DNA of 60,482 nt from an uncultured Bacteroidales bacterium (GTDB lineage Bacteria; Bacteroidota; Bacteroidia; Bacteroidales; Paludibacteraceae), in contig CAIWCC010000066.1 of NCBI GenBank assembly GCA_903911085.1, positions 1-60,482 on the forward strand. Direction: 5' to 3'. The translations under genes were made by a program, and so were the position numbers. The notes under the pieces were generated by a model. It saw only the letters and a list, made by a program, of their open reading frames with translations. It searched no databases and was not told where the DNA came from. Positions within the stretch are counted from its first letter, which is position 1. Every line of letters starts with the position of its first letter. This document shows, piece after piece, positions 54,538 through 60,482 of this stretch.

Positions 54538-54966
54538 TCATAATTTATTATTTGAAATATATTGCATTAAAGCCCAATTATATGCAATTGATAAATCTTG
54601 ATTAAATGCTCTAATGTCACTTTCTACCATTTGCCAAATTTCAGGTTTTGAATTTTTAGATGGAATACAAAAATAATAAATCATTTTACCTTTCCTATCA
54701 GTACGAACATACTCAACCAAAATAGCAGTTGTTTTTTTATCTGAAATTCTAATAAGATTTTTAAAGTAGAATTCTCTTTTTATATTTAAACTTTCAAAAG
54801 ATGAATAACTACAATTTACTAATTCATATCCTTTTTTCATATCTAATCCACTCTCTTTTTGAATTTTGTAACCTTTTGTTACAAAGTTCCATTCTTCAAC
54901 TGTTGTTTGTGAAAAACAAAATAAAGTTGATATTAGAATGAAAAAAATAATTGTGTGCTTTTTCAT
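54538..54966 (-). CDS. Hypothetical exported protein
   Basis: Not recognised. A 142-residue protein with a clear signal peptide (MKKHTIIFFILI to CFSQ) and no lipobox. The mature part is a mix of strands and helices without known motifs. It is the first gene inside the element from the left edge and is preceded by a lipoprotein gene 11 bases away on the same strand, so the two are probably co-expressed, perhaps with the repressor gene further upstream. A cell-envelope cargo function carried by the element is possible, but not shown. Confidence 0.75.
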   Translation of the reverse strand: MKKHTIIFFILISTLFCFSQTTVEEWNFVTKGYKIQKESGLDMKKGYELVNCSYSSFESLNIKREFYFKNLIRISDKKTTAILVEYVRTDRKGKMIYYFCIPSKNSKPEIWQMVESDIRAFNQDLSIAYNWALMQYISNNKL

Positions 54967-54977
54967 ATCATTTATTT

Positions 54978-55292
54978 TTAAGGAAATACAATATAATAAT
55001 TCTCACATGATTTATGTGTTCCAGAATATTCTTTTACAGTAGCATATAATAAATATCCCGATTTTTGTACAGCTTTAGCACTATAGTACCCTGCTGGGAT
55101 ATTGTACGTAACTTTATTTTTAGCTGCTACAACTTGTTGAAATTTATCATTAACATACAAGTTGTAAGGATCACTTGACCCGTTTGTAAATTCAATACAA
55201 AACGTGTTTTTGTCCTCACATTCTAATGTGGATTCTGTTTTACACCCAACTACCATTAAAACCAAAAACAGAGAGATTAAAAGCTTTTTCAT
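54978..55292 (-). CDS. Hypothetical small lipoprotein
   Basis: Not recognised. A 104-residue protein with signal peptide and lipobox VVGC at residues 14-17. The mature part has CIEFTNGSSDPYNLYVND and a YNIPAGYY segment, suggesting a small beta-sandwich like those found in accessory lipoproteins. Four further cysteines could form disulfides. It is followed by the exported-protein gene and preceded by the repressor-like gene 26 bases upstream on the same strand. Confidence 0.78.
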   Translation of the reverse strand: MKKLLISLFLVLMVVGCKTESTLECEDKNTFCIEFTNGSSDPYNLYVNDKFQQVVAAKNKVTYNIPAGYYSAKAVQKSGYLLYATVKEYSGTHKSCENYYIVFP

Positions 55293-55318
55293 TATTATTT
55301 ATTTTAGAGTTTAAAAAA

Positions 55319-55720
55319 TTATTTCTTTTTACCATAATTATTATTTGCTGAATTGGCAGCAATGCTTATATTTTCGTATTGATATATTTTTTCTTTAAGC
55401 ATTTTAATTATTTCTGTTTTATCGTTCAATTGTTCCCGCAATTGGTTTATTTCTCTTTCCTTATTTTCAAGAATCATTTTGTTACCGTTACCCGCCTGAA
55501 CGTGACCGGTTGTAATTGTAACGCCGTAAGTTCCACTATCAAAAAATTGTGCTGGACTGATACGCAAAACCTCACATAGCTTTTTTAATTTTCTCAATTG
55601 GATCGTATCATTTTTTATACTTTCCCTAAAACCGTTGGGAGTCATTTCTAATTCATTTGCTAGTTGTTGAATCTCAATTTTTTTCAATTCAACTATTTCT
55701 TTTAACTCGCTATATAACAT
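55319..55720 (-). CDS. XRE-like helix-turn-helix repressor with coiled coil
   Basis: A 133-residue DNA-binding protein. Residues about 1-60 form an HTH (IQQLANELEMTPNGFRESI as the helix-turn-helix, then LRKLKKLCEVLRISPAQFF). A glycine-containing linker and a coiled coil (about 85-115, KEREINQLREQLNDKTEII) follow, likely for dimerisation. It is divergent from a small Cro-like gene with repeated operator-like sites between, the layout of a temperate-phage or integrative-element switch. The two exported-protein genes lie downstream and may be expressed in the integrated state. Confidence 0.8.
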   Translation of the reverse strand: MLYSELKEIVELKKIEIQQLANELEMTPNGFRESIKNDTIQLRKLKKLCEVLRISPAQFFDSGTYGVTITTGHVQAGNGNKMILENKEREINQLREQLNDKTEIIKMLKEKIYQYENISIAANSANNNYGKKK

Positions 55721-55767
55721 TGCTTTATATTATTAAATTGTTTATAATCAATATAAATAATAATCTA

Positions 55768-55812
55768 TAAGTAAAATATACTTTGTTTGTAAGTAAAATA
55801 TGCTTTACTTTG
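55768..55812 (+). promoter_or_regulatory. Operator repeats overlapping the early promoter
   Basis: TAAGTAAAATATACTTTG (55768-55785) recurs as TAAGTAAAATATGCTTTA (55790-55807), 22 bp apart, about two helical turns. The first is an AAGTA-N5-TACTT palindrome; the second extends to AAGTAAA-N6-TTTACTT (55791-55810). They overlap TTTG (55782-55785), a 19-base spacer and TTACTTTG (55805-55812), a likely promoter for the rightward genes. Confidence 0.65.
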
Positions 55813-55880
55813 CACCGTTCAAACATGAACAAATATAATACATTTGAACGTAACAACAATAATTAAACCAAAAAAAGAAA

Positions 55881-56102
55881 ATGGAAAAATTAAGAAATGA
55901 TTTTTCGGAATGGTTAAACACCTTACAAGTTGGTATTTATCCCGAAATTAGGCAACGAGTAATAGCAGAATGCAAAATTACGGCCGTGGTTTTTAGACAG
56001 TGGAGATGTGGCGCTTCAAAAATTCCACCACTGGCAAAAGAAAAAATTAATATAATCGCTGAAAAGCAAGTATTCACAACTAACAACACCCCCGAATTAT
56101 GA
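55881..56102 (+). CDS. Small Cro-like DNA-binding protein (putative)
   Basis: A 73-residue protein with a short helical core (EIRQRVIAECKITAVVFRQW, then GASKIPPLAKEKINIIA) that resembles the HTH-like folds of Cro/replication-control proteins; the match is weak. It is the first rightward gene after the operator region and overlaps the next gene by 4 bases (ATGA), so it starts the early operon. Its position opposite the repressor is the main support for the Cro-like call. Confidence 0.55.
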   Translation: MEKLRNDFSEWLNTLQVGIYPEIRQRVIAECKITAVVFRQWRCGASKIPPLAKEKINIIAEKQVFTTNNTPEL

Positions 56103-56392
56103 AAAAGACAACGTTAAAACAGTTTTACACACTTGCAGAAAAAATGTTGAATGACAACGGAATAACCATTTCTTTGGAAAATACACTATCAGTACAGGTA
56201 GAAATAGAAAAAAAAGAAAATGAGAAAATTCCAGAAATTGACTATGTAATTAGATATCGTATAACAAAAGATGATCGTAACTCTATTTTTGCTTATGGTG
56301 CTAATCATAATAAAGCCCTCGAAATGTTTCAACAGTCAATCAATGAGTTTCTTAAAATTGAAGATAAACAAACAGATATAATAATAGATTGA
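56099..56392 (+). CDS. Hypothetical protein of the element's early operon
   Basis: Not recognised. A 97-residue charged soluble protein with an N-terminal helix (residues 1-20), central strands and a C-terminal helix. No signal, TM or metal motif. Its start overlaps the upstream stop by 4 bases and a small gene begins 1 base after its stop, so translation is coupled on both sides. Confidence 0.7.
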   Translation: MKKTTLKQFYTLAEKMLNDNGITISLENTLSVQVEIEKKENEKIPEIDYVIRYRITKDDRNSIFAYGANHNKALEMFQQSINEFLKIEDKQTDIIID

Positions 56393-56393
56393 A

Positions 56394-56546
56394 ATGAGAA
56401 CCCCACAAACCACCAAAACAATTAAATTACTTGCAGGAGCTACAGCCGTTCAAATACATGTTATATATGACCAATATACATATTTAAGTTTTAATTGTCC
56501 CGTGTGGAAAGATAAACTTTGTTTGTACGCAATACTAGGCAATTAG
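56394..56546 (+). CDS. Small hypothetical protein, 50 residues
   Basis: A 50-codon frame from ATG 56394 to TAG 56544-56546, starting 1 base after the previous stop. The product starts MRTPQTTKTIKLLAG, has an aromatic middle (IYDQYTYLSF) and two cysteines (NCPVW, KLCLY). No family is recognised. The coupling distance and an intact frame in AT-rich DNA support it; chance cannot be excluded. Confidence 0.5.
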   Translation: MRTPQTTKTIKLLAGATAVQIHVIYDQYTYLSFNCPVWKDKLCLYAILGN

Positions 56547-56610
56547 AGCATTAAGAGCGTAAATCGCAATTTAGTAACCTTAGTTAATAACGATACAATA
56601 ATTAAAGAAA

Positions 56611-56997
56611 ATGATACTAACATTCAGTAGATCGCATTTTTTTAACGAAATAAACAAAGGCACAAAAATACATACCATCCGATTGGATAAAACAAACCGT
56701 TGGAAAGCTGGCAATAAAATTCATTTTTGGTACGGCAACCCCCGAAACGTAAAGAGCAATCCTTATCAATTTGCTTTTGGTAAATGTACAAAAGTTGAAA
56801 CCATTATTATTGATTTTCAAATTGAAATAGTAGCATACGGAAATACCAAAATATACAGGTTTGACGAATTAGATGTGTTTGCTCAAAACGATGGTTTTGA
56901 AAATTGGGACTGTCTTAAAGATTGGTTCTATGAAAAAAATCAAAGATTGGATCACGGAATTTTTGAGGGTAAAATTATATTCTGGGAACTAACATGA
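56611..56997 (+). CDS. ASCH/PUA-like domain protein of mobile elements
   Basis: A 128-residue protein. The KGTKIHTIR segment with RWKAGNKIHFWYG is what I recognise from phage-borne ASCH-like (PUA-superfamily) proteins of Bacteroidota, which keep a conserved late ND(G)F motif (here AQNDGF) and end in G-KIIFWEL. The family is thought to bind RNA or modified nucleic acid, but no role is established in these elements. It overlaps the next gene by 4 bases. Confidence 0.65.
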   Translation: MILTFSRSHFFNEINKGTKIHTIRLDKTNRWKAGNKIHFWYGNPRNVKSNPYQFAFGKCTKVETIIIDFQIEIVAYGNTKIYRFDELDVFAQNDGFENWDCLKDWFYEKNQRLDHGIFEGKIIFWELT

Positions 56998-57176
56998 ACC
57001 CTAAAGACCTAAAATCAGCGCAAACATACAGTTATAAGGTTTTGGATCAACCACCAATATTAATCCAATATTGGTACGAACAATTGAACTATTGGAGCTT
57101 TACCACTGTAGACGAACCACGGAAAATCATTTTATTGCATAGTCAACACATCAAGTATAATTTACAAGAAATATAA
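56994..57176 (+). CDS. Hypothetical protein, 60 residues
   Basis: Not recognised. A small acidic/aromatic protein (MNPKDLKSAQTYSY start, WYEQLNYWSF middle) without signal or TM. It overlaps the ASCH-like gene (ATGA) and ends 4 bases before the primase-helicase start, so it is translated as part of the same operon. Confidence 0.6.
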   Translation: MNPKDLKSAQTYSYKVLDQPPILIQYWYEQLNYWSFTTVDEPRKIILLHSQHIKYNLQEI

Positions 57177-57180
57177 CGTA

Positions 57181-59535
57181 ATGAAAGAAATTACAGAACT
57201 TCAAAAATACTATTTAAAAAGGCTTTCAGAATGTGGACTAACAGAAAAAACAAACAAAAGAATTATTGGTTTTGAGGGTAGAACCCAAAGCGTACCCGTA
57301 TTTTTTCCAATGGATAAAACCGATGGACTTCATATTCCATATACTCAACCAGATGGAGAAAGTGAATTTTATCAAAATGGAAAAAAGATAATTCCTTATG
57401 AACGTTTGCGCTATAGAGTAGCAAAGGAGTTTACAGACCAAAAGACTGGAAAGCGAAAAAAAATACGCTACTCACAGCCCAAAAATACAGGCGTTTACTC
57501 TTATTTGCCCCCGCAAATAGTTGAAAAATTTAAAGCTAAAACACCAATTAAAACGCTTTTTGTTGTAGAGGGTGAATTTAAGAGCCTTGCAGGAGCTTAT
57601 ATTTTGGGACTCGATATAATAGGTTTGGGCGGTATAAACAACTACAGGGACAAAGAAAAAAAGACTTTAGAGCCTTATATGTTGCAACTGATTGAAACAT
57701 GTAAAATTGAGAATATTGTATTGATGTTTGATGCTGATTGTTTGGCCGTGAAGTACAACGAAAAAACAGACCTTGCATCCCGATTAAATGATTTTTACAA
57801 TGCAGTTTGCAATTTTCGTGAACTACTTAAGCCGTTTGACATTGATGTGTATTTCTCACACATTCAAACAAAGTATGTTATTTCAGCCAAAGGATTAGAT
57901 GATCTTTTAAATGTGGCAGGTATCGACCGTGTAGCCATTGGTAAGGAGCTCGAAAACTTTGCAACTGGCAACGGTGAGTATTTCCACACACAACCATTGC
58001 GGGGCGGGTTTGCCGATAAGCTTAGTAAGTACTTTTGTTTACATTCAGTATCAGAGTTTTATAACCGTTACGAATCCATTATACAAGATAAAGAATTTCG
58101 TTTCAATGGTCGACAATGGTATTACGATGGTACAAAAGTAATTAGTGCAGTCATTCAAGAAGCCAAACAGTATTTGCGTATTGGTTGCGATTATTACAAG
58201 CGTATTTGGAAAGTAAACCCACACAAAGACGTACAACACCAAATACCAATTATGATACTTGAAAAGTGGCAAATTGGCGAAATAAACCGTGATTTTTCCA
58301 ACAACAAAGATTTTATAAAAGCAGTACCCAAATACGATGGTTTTGTAAATTTACCCGACAATACAAGCTCATATCGCCGTATCATTGAAGCCGAACACGA
58401 GGGCATGACATCCCGCTTTTATAATCGCTACAATGAATTAAAACATGACATTGAACCGGGTGATTGGAAAAACATTGAAAGCCTATTAAAGCACATTTTT
58501 AGCACCAACAACACGGCTGGCGAAAACTTGTATGAGTTTGGTTTGGATTGCATACAAATAAAGTTCTTTAACCCCCGACAACGTTTACCCGTACTTTGCC
58601 CGGTAAGTTCCGAACGAAACACAGGTAAAACAAAGTTCCTTGAATTTTTGCGTTTGATATTCAAAGAAAATAGTGCGATACTTGACAACGAACGGTTTAC
58701 AGGCAAATTCACATCTCACTTTGTCGATAAAGCCATCGTAGCACTGGACGAGGGTTTTATACCAATAGAACAAAAATTGATGAAAGAACGTATCAAAAAC
58801 TTTTCTACAGGGTCAACCGTATGGAGTGAGGGCAAAGGAAAAGACAGTTACGAACTGGATAACTTCATGTGGTTAATCATGTGCTCGAATGACGAAAGTA
58901 ATTTTATGCAAATTGACGAGGGCGAAAATCGTTTTTGTGTGCTCAAAGTTCCATCGCTCAAAATGGATAATCCAAATATCATAAATGATTGTGAAAAGGA
59001 AATACCCGCTTTTCTGCATTATCTTTCAACCCGAACATTAAAGTATGCTACAGGTCAAAGCCGTTTCAGTTTCAATACTAAAGTTTATGAAACCGATGCA
59101 TTGATGGCAGTAATGGAACGTACTGAAAAACGATTGACAAAGGAAATTAAAGAGTTTCTTAGAGCGCAATTTACAGCCCACGAACAACAGATTTTGCACT
59201 ATGCACCCGTTGACCTTGCAATAGAAATGAACGAATCAGGCGGGCGGTTTAAAGTGGATAAGTCCGACATAAACGATTACTTAAAGTATGAAGTAAAAAA
59301 GCAACCAGAGCGCAAAATGTGGTACAAACTTTTTACTGTAGTTTGTGAACTTGACACCTCAAACGAAACCATAGAAATATCAAAAGTAAAAAAACAAAAG
59401 AACGGTACACCCTATGCTTTCAGGATTGAAGAATATTTCAGCACGGCCGAACTCAAAGCAATGGCATCCGAAAAACCCGCAATTGTAGAACCAATACCAG
59501 AACCCGTACAAATAGAAGTCCCATTTAAAAAATAG
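57181..59535 (+). CDS. Toprim / SF3 helicase replication protein (primase-helicase)
   Basis: A 784-residue replication protein of phage/element type. The N-terminal third contains a Toprim-like domain of the DUF3854 kind: FVVEGEFKSLAG with the catalytic Glu and VLMFDADC with the Asp pair (about 130-190). The C-terminal half is a superfamily 3 helicase/DUF5906-like ATPase: Walker A in SERNTGKTKF (about 478-487) and Walker B in IVALDEGF. Such proteins prime and unwind DNA at the element's own origin. An acidic/Pro tail ends the protein. The methyltransferase gene follows after 10 bases. Confidence 0.85.
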   Translation: MKEITELQKYYLKRLSECGLTEKTNKRIIGFEGRTQSVPVFFPMDKTDGLHIPYTQPDGESEFYQNGKKIIPYERLRYRVAKEFTDQKTGKRKKIRYSQPKNTGVYSYLPPQIVEKFKAKTPIKTLFVVEGEFKSLAGAYILGLDIIGLGGINNYRDKEKKTLEPYMLQLIETCKIENIVLMFDADCLAVKYNEKTDLASRLNDFYNAVCNFRELLKPFDIDVYFSHIQTKYVISAKGLDDLLNVAGIDRVAIGKELENFATGNGEYFHTQPLRGGFADKLSKYFCLHSVSEFYNRYESIIQDKEFRFNGRQWYYDGTKVISAVIQEAKQYLRIGCDYYKRIWKVNPHKDVQHQIPIMILEKWQIGEINRDFSNNKDFIKAVPKYDGFVNLPDNTSSYRRIIEAEHEGMTSRFYNRYNELKHDIEPGDWKNIESLLKHIFSTNNTAGENLYEFGLDCIQIKFFNPRQRLPVLCPVSSERNTGKTKFLEFLRLIFKENSAILDNERFTGKFTSHFVDKAIVALDEGFIPIEQKLMKERIKNFSTGSTVWSEGKGKDSYELDNFMWLIMCSNDESNFMQIDEGENRFCVLKVPSLKMDNPNIINDCEKEIPAFLHYLSTRTLKYATGQSRFSFNTKVYETDALMAVMERTEKRLTKEIKEFLRAQFTAHEQQILHYAPVDLAIEMNESGGRFKVDKSDINDYLKYEVKKQPERKMWYKLFTVVCELDTSNETIEISKVKKQKNGTPYAFRIEEYFSTAELKAMASEKPAIVEPIPEPVQIEVPFKK

Positions 59536-59545
59536 GATATAAAAT

Positions 59546-60325
59546 ATGAAAAGCAATGAATTAATACATGGTTCTTTATTTTCCGGAGTTGGAGGTTTTG
59601 AACTTGGCGCTCAGCTCAGTGGAATAGAAACAATTTGGAATTGTGAATATGAAGAACATAATAGAGAAATATTAAAGAAAAACTTTCCAAACACAAAACA
59701 ATATTTTGATGTAAGAACTATGAATAATGTTGAATATGTAGATATTATTTCTGGAGGTTTTCCATGTCAGGATTTAAGTTTATCAAATACAACACCAAAA
59801 AATAAACAATTAAGAAATGAAAAAAAAAAAGGAATTAAAGGAGAACGCAGCGGATTATGGAGTGAAATGTTTAGAGTTGTACGGGATATTAGACCAAAAT
59901 ACGTTATCATTGAAAACAGCCCAATGTTACTTATTCGAGGATTTGAACAAGTCTTATGCAACCTTTCCAGCATCGGGTATGTGTGTGAATGGCAATGTTT
60001 ACAGGCGGCGCAATTTGGGTACAATCATAAAAGAAATAGATTTTTTGGTATTGCCTACCCCATCGAAAAGCGATGCAAAAATAATAATGAAATATTCTTG
60101 GAGTTACAAAAAGTATTACTTAAAAAACCATCAAGACAAAACGATATACCAATGCATCTTAAACGGTTTGACGCAAATTCAAACTTTGAACTTTTACGAG
60201 TGGATGATGGGTTTTCCAAAGGATTGGACATCCAAAGAATTGAAATGATGGGAAACGCTGTAATTCCCGAAATTGCTCACTATATTTTTGAATGTATAAA
60301 GTTCCACCACGAAAATATATATTAA
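59546..60325 (+). CDS. C5-cytosine DNA methyltransferase
   Basis: A 259-residue cytosine-5 methyltransferase of the short phage form. Motif I is FSGVGGFELG (SAM binding), motif IV GGFPCQDLS with the catalytic cysteine, motif VI VIIENSPM with the catalytic Glu, motif VIII LQAAQFGYNHKRNRFFG and motif X MMGNAVIPEIA. The target-recognition segment between VIII and X is only about 60 residues, so the site is unpredictable. No restriction enzyme gene is adjacent, pointing to a solitary protective or regulatory methylase. An A11 run at 59820-59830 and a second open frame (59817-60248) lie inside it. Confidence 0.93.
   Translation: MKSNELIHGSLFSGVGGFELGAQLSGIETIWNCEYEEHNREILKKNFPNTKQYFDVRTMNNVEYVDIISGGFPCQDLSLSNTTPKNKQLRNEKKKGIKGERSGLWSEMFRVVRDIRPKYVIIENSPMLLIRGFEQVLCNLSSIGYVCEWQCLQAAQFGYNHKRNRFFGIAYPIEKRCKNNNEIFLELQKVLLKKPSRQNDIPMHLKRFDANSNFELLRVDDGFSKGLDIQRIEMMGNAVIPEIAHYIFECIKFHHENIY
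59817..60248 (+). CDS. Overlapping +1-frame ORF inside the methyltransferase gene
   Basis: A 143-codon frame, +1 relative to the methyltransferase, from ATG 59817 to TGA 60246-60248, lying entirely within that gene. Its product has NAADYG (about 10-15), SLKTAQCYLFEDL (31-43), FPASGMCVNGNVYRR (50-64), LPTPSKSDAK (79-88) and FYEWMMGFPKDW (126-137). From memory, this ordered set (SGM..NG..Y, then LPTP..SD, then E-W-x-M-G-F-P) recurs in phage proteins near or within DNA methyltransferases. Expression is unproven. It could be reached directly from its ATG or by losing one A in the A11 run. Alternatively it is an out-of-frame echo of the methyltransferase motifs. Confidence 0.45.
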   Translation: MKKKKELKENAADYGVKCLELYGILDQNTLSLKTAQCYLFEDLNKSYATFPASGMCVNGNVYRRRNLGTIIKEIDFLVLPTPSKSDAKIIMKYSWSYKKYYLKNHQDKTIYQCILNGLTQIQTLNFYEWMMGFPKDWTSKELK

Positions 60326-60352
60326 CTAATAACTTACAAATTGAGAAAAAAT

Positions 60353-60439
60353 ATGATCTGGATTCTAATCCCAATCATATTTTTTTTTGTGCTCTTTTGG
60401 CTCGTATATAAACGGAAGTTTGGAGCAAACACATTTTGA
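60353..60439 (+). CDS. Very small membrane protein (28 residues), putative
   Basis: An ATG-TGA frame of 28 codons, 27 bases after the methyltransferase stop. The product is one hydrophobic helix (IWILIPIIFFFVLFWLVY) followed by a basic tail (KRKFG). This shape fits single-TM small proteins such as holin-like or toxin peptides, but frames of this size arise often by chance. Confidence 0.35.
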   Translation: MIWILIPIIFFFVLFWLVYKRKFGANTF

Positions 60440-60453
60440 ACAAAAAAAAACGT

Positions 60454-60480
60454 TTCTCATTTTTCTCATTTTTCTCATTT
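60454..60480. repeat. 9-bp direct repeat, three copies, at the window edge
   Basis: TTCTCATTT is repeated three times in tandem without mismatch. It follows the small membrane ORF and may continue past the window end. Confidence 0.85.
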
Positions 60481-60482
60481 AA

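Follow-up and report, generated by a model that had tools for sequence, protein, structure and literature searches.

The DNA analysed here, referred to as the window, is a stretch of 60,482 nucleotides, and the features of concern lie near its end:

59546-60325, + strand: frame-0 gene for a predicted phage-type C5 cytosine DNA methyltransferase (MTase), 259 aa
59817-60248, + strand: putative overprinted ORF in the +1 frame, 143 aa, entirely within the MTase gene, with a phrog_1008 match
59811-59819, + strand: TAA-GAA-ATG in the +1 frame, an in-frame stop and then the presumed +1 start
59820-59830, + strand: run of 11 A directly after the +1 ATG, which by its sequence may be a slippage site
59975-59977, + strand: GGG codon of frame-0 Gly144, whose third base sets the conserved Gly of the +1 'SGM'
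60209-60211, + strand: GGG codon of frame-0 Gly222, within the +1 'WMMGFP'
57181-59535, + strand: DUF5906 gene, 784 aa (PF19263, E 1.2e-15), with its stop 10 bases upstream of the MTase start

A methyltransferase gene with a second open frame

The frame-0 product matches PF00145 with an E-value of 1.9e-37 (129.9 bits, cut-off 22) and phrog_363 with an E-value of 1.5e-53, and it also passes TIGR00675, although barely (102.6 bits for a cut-off of 100.65). Residues C74, Q75, E123, N124, R163 and R165 are invariant in all 14 aligned loci and fall in PCQ, EN and RxR, the catalytic and cofactor motif residues of C5 MTases. Judged by profile and motif residues, the frame-0 product is a C5 cytosine DNA methyltransferase, encoded by a gene of 32% GC content. 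The surrounding region (54538-60482) resembles a prophage edge cut by the contig end, with the contig end placed at the window's end from the window's span of 1-60482. Here a leftward HTH_26 repressor-like gene (55319-55720) is followed by rightward small genes, the DUF5906 gene and the MTase gene near the window's end.

The +1 frame is open from 59814; its ATG lies at 59817, and the stop codon occupies 60246-60248. The sequence-only reading had claimed 143 open codons at 59817-60248, a claim borne out by the ORF itself and by the permutation check described below, and the +1 motifs that it listed are all where it had put them, with NAADYG at 59844, SGMCVNGNVYRR at 59973, LPTPSKSD at 60051 and EWMMGFP at 60198. 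Given that frame-0 VDDGFSKGLD starts at 60200 and +1 WMMGFPKDWT at 60201, and that frame-0 IGYVCEWQCLQAA starts at 59972, one nucleotide before its +1 counterpart, the shift between paired motifs is exactly +1, in agreement with the one-base shift claimed earlier.

Openness and conservation of the +1 frame

Synonymous codons were shuffled within the gene, leaving the MTase protein and its codon counts unchanged. In the window, none of 20,000 such permutations reached the observed +1 run, which spans 144 codons when measured from the stop before it (longest +1 run in permutations: mean 48 codons, maximum 142). The open +1 frame of the window is not a product of chance. Because selection by the +1 frame was to be avoided, further loci were picked by the MTase frame alone, comprising the best 80 viral and the best 80 genomic loci. 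With 200 permutations each, the +1 run exceeded expectation at p<0.01 in 116 of these 160 loci and at p<=0.05 in 141, and several of the 44 loci that missed p<0.01 are GC-rich. The median ratio of observed to expected run length was 2.19 for the +1 frame and 0.91 for the third frame. By contrast, neighbouring genes from the same loci (121 ORFs of at least 180 codons, 100 permutations each) showed p<0.01 in one case and p<=0.05 in eight. Stop codons followed the same pattern, with 928 observed versus 1529 expected in the +1 frame and 2784 versus 2644 in the third frame, as counted over 175 of 176 records (the record with a frame 0 below 150 codons being omitted, and the window being counted twice, as itself and as L003). 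With the MTase protein held fixed, the openness of the +1 frame exceeds chance, as expected of an overprinted gene.

The length of an open run alone is no proof, because two of the control loci (L257 and L263) also have a +1 run beyond all of 100 permutations without any likeness to the +1 profile. These controls are 30 C5 MTase loci that PF00145 picked up in the genomes of the host and its relatives; L268 and L284 among them represent a single ORF, and three others (L272, L274 and L275) are fragments. The +1 profile was built from 14 +1 sequences (alignment A3) of loci chosen by +1 similarity. Its signal was absent in 29 of the 30 controls, L273 being the sole exception. In the 160 loci, which lie outside the training set and some of which are near kin of training loci (L016 and L004, 79%), the real reading scored above all 100 permutations in 149 and did not beat all of them in the remaining 11, with a median of 119 bits for the real reading versus a median permutation mean of 51. 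The profile is kept across genes of 32-74% GC.

The relation between the two frames is strict. All 80 viral loci fetched by +1 alignment have an MTase in the frame one base behind, and among 254 loci (some contigs being present in both scans) a +1 match at E<1e-3 was found in 248, every one at relative frame +1, leaving six without a detectable match. An absence of +1 homologues outside shifted copies of the MTase gene had been named beforehand as evidence against a second gene; such an absence does hold among these DNA loci, to which the statement applies. No clear case of a broken MTase frame with an intact +1 frame was seen in the 80 loci fetched by +1 similarity, although frame 0 is split into separate pieces in two of them (L182, 1216-1772; L247, 1212-2274). 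In an earlier scan, the MTase frame of L002 (3001-3502) was found in three pieces.

The suggested check for suppressed synonymous variation in frame 0 gave a strong result. At four-fold sites, the third base was compared with each gene's own usage (G with 3 degrees of freedom) in 167 of 174 loci, leaving out L132, L137, L154, L156, L162, L165 and L167 for having no clear +1 length excess. Nine of 11 four-fold sites within MTase residues 125-222 showed strong third-base constraint (G 87-430), the remaining two being residues 158 and 159 (G 28 and 17), and sites up to residue 117 and from residue 236 on in window numbering were weakly to moderately constrained (G 1-48). Gly144 is encoded by GGG in 156 of the 161 loci having that glycine (36 expected) and Gly222 in 143 of 149 (34 expected), and it is their third bases that fix the glycines of the +1 'SGM' and 'MMGFP'. 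When the window is compared with L001, its nearest relative, the two differ at 0.19 third bases per codon in the overlap and at 0.43 upstream. In 41 pairs of at least 65% identity, changes confined to the frame-0 third base occurred at 0.135 per codon in the overlap versus 0.300 upstream, and changes confined to the +1 third base at 0.108 versus 0.053. The share of +1 third-base changes that are silent in the +1 frame was 88% in the overlap (728 of 826) versus 82% upstream (53 of 65), an excess of the expected sign that is not significant (Fisher p=0.12). Pooled differences at codon positions 1, 2 and 3 were 0.25, 0.16 and 0.32 in the overlap and 0.18, 0.10 and 0.46 upstream, as obtained from 79 pairs that include near-duplicates (some contigs having been fetched twice). 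Normal synonymous variation in the MTase frame across the overlap, which the sequence-only reading had named as counting against dual coding, is thus not what is found; silent sites are suppressed in the partner frame, as expected of an overprinted gene. Besides being open, the +1 frame has residues whose conservation goes far past the needs of the MTase protein.

Annotation, starts and competing explanations

The window +1 product matches phrog_1008, a family of 329 positions labelled 'DNA methyltransferase', over its residues 4-88 (E 4.4e-11), as do other +1 products (L009, 1.4e-31; L148, 7.6e-30; P0041, 3e-18). In addition, matches at E<=0.001 were obtained for the window +1 product with 38 of 47 candidate proteins, and for the +1 profile with 4782 of the 8000 candidates scored. 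The claim of the sequence-only reading that the +1 motifs form a phage family of their own is thereby confirmed. PF00145 did not match the window +1 product up to E 1 or any of 30 +1 products (members of A5) up to E 0.1, and the label 'DNA methyltransferase' of phrog_1008 is wrong for the +1 frame and belongs to the other frame. Searches of Pfam, NCBIfam, PADLOC and PDB sequences with the +1 product gave no convincing match. Hits to Pfam DpaA_N (window product, E 0.018), Pfam DUF3793 (one +1 relative, E 0.085) and PDB sequences (best E 0.2) were considered and not kept. Models predicted by AlphaFold are weak, with a mean pLDDT of 66.5 for the window product (84-87 in its helical C-terminal part, residues 91-140) and 54.7 for one full-length +1 product.

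In eight annotated phages, picked by eye and partly for a 'hypothetical' label rather than as a random sample, the annotated gene lies in the +1 frame in five records and in the MTase frame in three. The former are Pseudomonas phage phPA-G, Vibrio phage 1.236.O, Mycobacterium phages XFactor (L288) and Bipolar (L289), the +1 gene of the last being named 'DNA methyltransferase', and Microcystis phage Mwe-JY08, with a short piece only; the latter are Klebsiella phage BUCT711, Stenotrophomonas phage S72 and Salmonella phage S9-5. Both frames match their profiles in all eight, and the third frame is full of stops in the four that were printed in full. The main text of two AntiFam papers contains no word beginning with 'methyl'.

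In 20 loci the +1 frame covers almost the entire MTase gene and starts with ATG-AGY-TGG (Met-Ser-Trp, MSW), near-identical loci being counted once and seven of 27 pattern matches being set aside as not MSW starts. The +1 ATG of this full-length group is present in all 20 and is directly preceded by an in-frame stop codon in all 20, suggesting a conserved start of its own; in 10 of them the same stop closes an ORF of 130 codons or more lying upstream. A frame-0 start codon lies 4 bases upstream of the +1 ATG in 19 (ATG in 10, GTG in 7, TTG in 2), and a site of Shine-Dalgarno type is found, by a loose pattern, in 17. In the branch that holds the window, a stop closes the +1 frame farther upstream. 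The window start ATG (59817) is at the same place in L001, L004 and L016, and the frame-0 residues at that ATG differ among the window and these three loci (NE, DG, NG and DG, respectively). L096, also near in the tree, has no ATG at this position and has one 30 bases upstream. In seven loci (L146, L147, L152, L160, L173, L174 and L175) the +1 ORF overruns the end of the MTase frame by 7-16 bases and is therefore not nested; in six of the seven, the codon 4 bases upstream of the +1 ATG is GTG or TTG.

We conclude, with a probability of roughly 0.9 and from comparison of sequences, that C5 MTase genes of the phage type harbour an overprinted second gene, read in the +1 frame, and that this arrangement is old. 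The +1 frame is probably translated from its own start. The full-length second protein (about 230-300 aa) would start at ATG-AGY-TGG, usually 4 bases past the MTase start. Because the two starts are 4 bases apart behind one Shine-Dalgarno-like site, a single ribosome-binding site would serve both frames. The second frame of the window's Bacteroidota branch is shorter at its 5' end and would be entered at the internal ATG (59817). We infer that the second protein would be translated from its own start and serve the same purpose as the MTase during infection.

Between an overprinted gene and a database family born by frameshift, the two options left by the sequence-only reading, permutations and frozen silent sites support the former. 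That the family is spurious, being made of wrong-frame gene calls whose +1 likeness merely echoes MTase conservation, could draw on the fact that every DNA homologue is a +1 reading of an MTase gene, on annotators picking either frame and on the low structure confidence of the +1 models. However, shuffling codons with the MTase protein and codon counts fixed destroys both the likeness and the openness of the +1 frame, third bases at which changes would leave the MTase unaltered are frozen, and neighbour genes and all but one of the control MTase loci yield almost nothing and no profile signal, respectively. An artefact of frameshift or database was rejected on these fixed-protein permutations and two control sets; wrong-frame calling fails as a full explanation, for which we hold it very improbable, and holds as a description of the annotation. 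Constraint on the nucleic acid itself (an RNA structure, a DNA site or a regulatory element) without a second protein appears just as improbable. It would account for some silent sites being near invariant, and for a +1-synonymous excess short of significance. By contrast, it predicts neither the avoidance of stops in the +1 frame and not in the third, nor a +1 profile maintained over such a range of GC content, nor the twofold rise, within the overlap, of changes at third positions of the +1 frame, where frame-0 codons have their first base; moreover, the strongly constrained stretch extends over about 300 bases and the full-length group retains an ATG start.

A further explanation is that the +1 frame is reached from the MTase frame by frameshifting or slippage, giving a fusion of the N-terminal MTase half with the C-terminal +1 half. 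Four of the 38 proteins matching the window product (P0007, P0011, P0023 and P0026) indeed read as PF00145 followed by a +1 segment, and the +1 ORF of the window has 11 A in a row at its start. However, the fusions, as predicted, would require an altered DNA sequence, P0007 reading like a one-base deletion as far as its protein sequence tells, and the junctions differ among the four. Such a fusion would also be without the C-terminal half of the MTase, and the +1 frame has its own ATG with an in-frame stop directly before it in all MSW loci. We therefore regard access to the +1 frame through the MTase frame as unlikely, if somewhat less so than the two preceding explanations. The four fusion proteins look like frameshift alleles or sequence errors.

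For the overprinted gene, the role considered most likely, tentatively and below even odds, is that of a partner, brake or counter-defence protein made with the MTase, since the shared leader and the strict overlap suggest co-production. A broader and more doubtful version would have many phage 'C5 methyltransferase' genes as two-protein cassettes of a DNA-modifying enzyme and an effector of an unnamed family, whose start can lie four bases away, both directed against host defence; this would be full-length dual coding in tailed phages, old and very widespread, overlooked because databases keep one frame per locus.

Known overlaps, distribution and origin

Long same-strand overlapping genes are generally considered rare outside small viruses. 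Here, the overlap of two unrelated proteins would extend to as many as about 300 codons, in phages and prophages whose hosts belong to many bacterial phyla. Such double use of one stretch, of which annotation usually records a single protein, seems to be common to many phages and prophages. In tymoviruses, the starts of the two overlapping frames lie close together. The MTase/+1 pair would be same-strand overprinting like that described for phiX174 and for tymovirus p69 over the replicase methyltransferase domain. According to a review of overprinted viral genes, both frames of one stretch are under protein constraint, and the older partner is widespread while the newer is restricted (PMC8227390). 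That review deals mainly with small eukaryotic viruses, whereas the MTase/+1 pair is found in tailed-phage and prophage genomes; it also differs in having hosts of many phyla and an overlap of up to almost the entire enzyme gene.

The nearest known system is the ShiLan domain, an HNH endonuclease hidden out of frame in the DNA methylase of a mycobacteriophage (PMC11855218), the common trait being a hidden second frame within a phage DNA methylase gene. ShiLan is described there as a mobile insertion of patchy distribution, in the third frame and with an HNH domain (PMC11855218). By contrast, the MTase/+1 pair shows no insertion, uses the +1 frame and overlaps the conserved MTase core, with +1 motifs colinear with core MTase motifs, and a Pfam search detected no HNH or other domain in the +1 products. 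Among known families, phrog_1008 is the +1 family itself, the tested +1 products being without a PF00145 match, and the frame-0 partner is an ordinary-looking member of the phrog_363/PF00145 C5 MTases that carries a second frame, unlike 29 of the 30 control loci. In open-access PMC text, no description of the MTase/+1 overlap was found.

The pair offers a natural experiment in one sequence satisfying two proteins, and the +1 family, matched by thousands of database proteins, is a new protein family to characterise. The 'DNA methyltransferase' label of PHROG 1008 calls for correction where it is applied to the +1 frame, and silent recoding of such a phage MTase gene would break the second gene unnoticed.

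Record names of the loci include Bacteroidota, Proteobacteria, Actinobacteria, Planctomycetes, Chloroflexi and Spirochaetes, as well as phages of Microcystis and Synechococcus. When the +1 profile was run against 296 genomes of the phylum, the tally showed 10 with a match, including the window's own genome; among the other matches listed, most are near the threshold, have internal stops and are likely due to chance.

A tree of 154 MTases, some of its branches long, was built with the fast method FastTree from a sample with every second viral locus of L016-L095, without L176-L255 and without controls below 60 bits. A branch with 100% local support separates the 26 controls from all 122 +1 loci, and six loci lacking a detectable +1 match lie among the latter. 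Five changes suffice to explain gain and loss of the +1 frame on this tree, and starred branches force at least two. This pattern fits a single origin with some losses. The +1 frame may therefore have emerged a single time, in the ancestor of the phage-type clade, and have been lost a few times, and the MTase fold is the older partner because control C5 MTases are without the +1 profile. The phage-type-clade MTases without a detectable +1 match are L123, L132, L153, L161, L169 and L171. L123 has an open +1 run of 265 codons where 102 are expected and, because this long run is retained, may possibly represent a diverged version.
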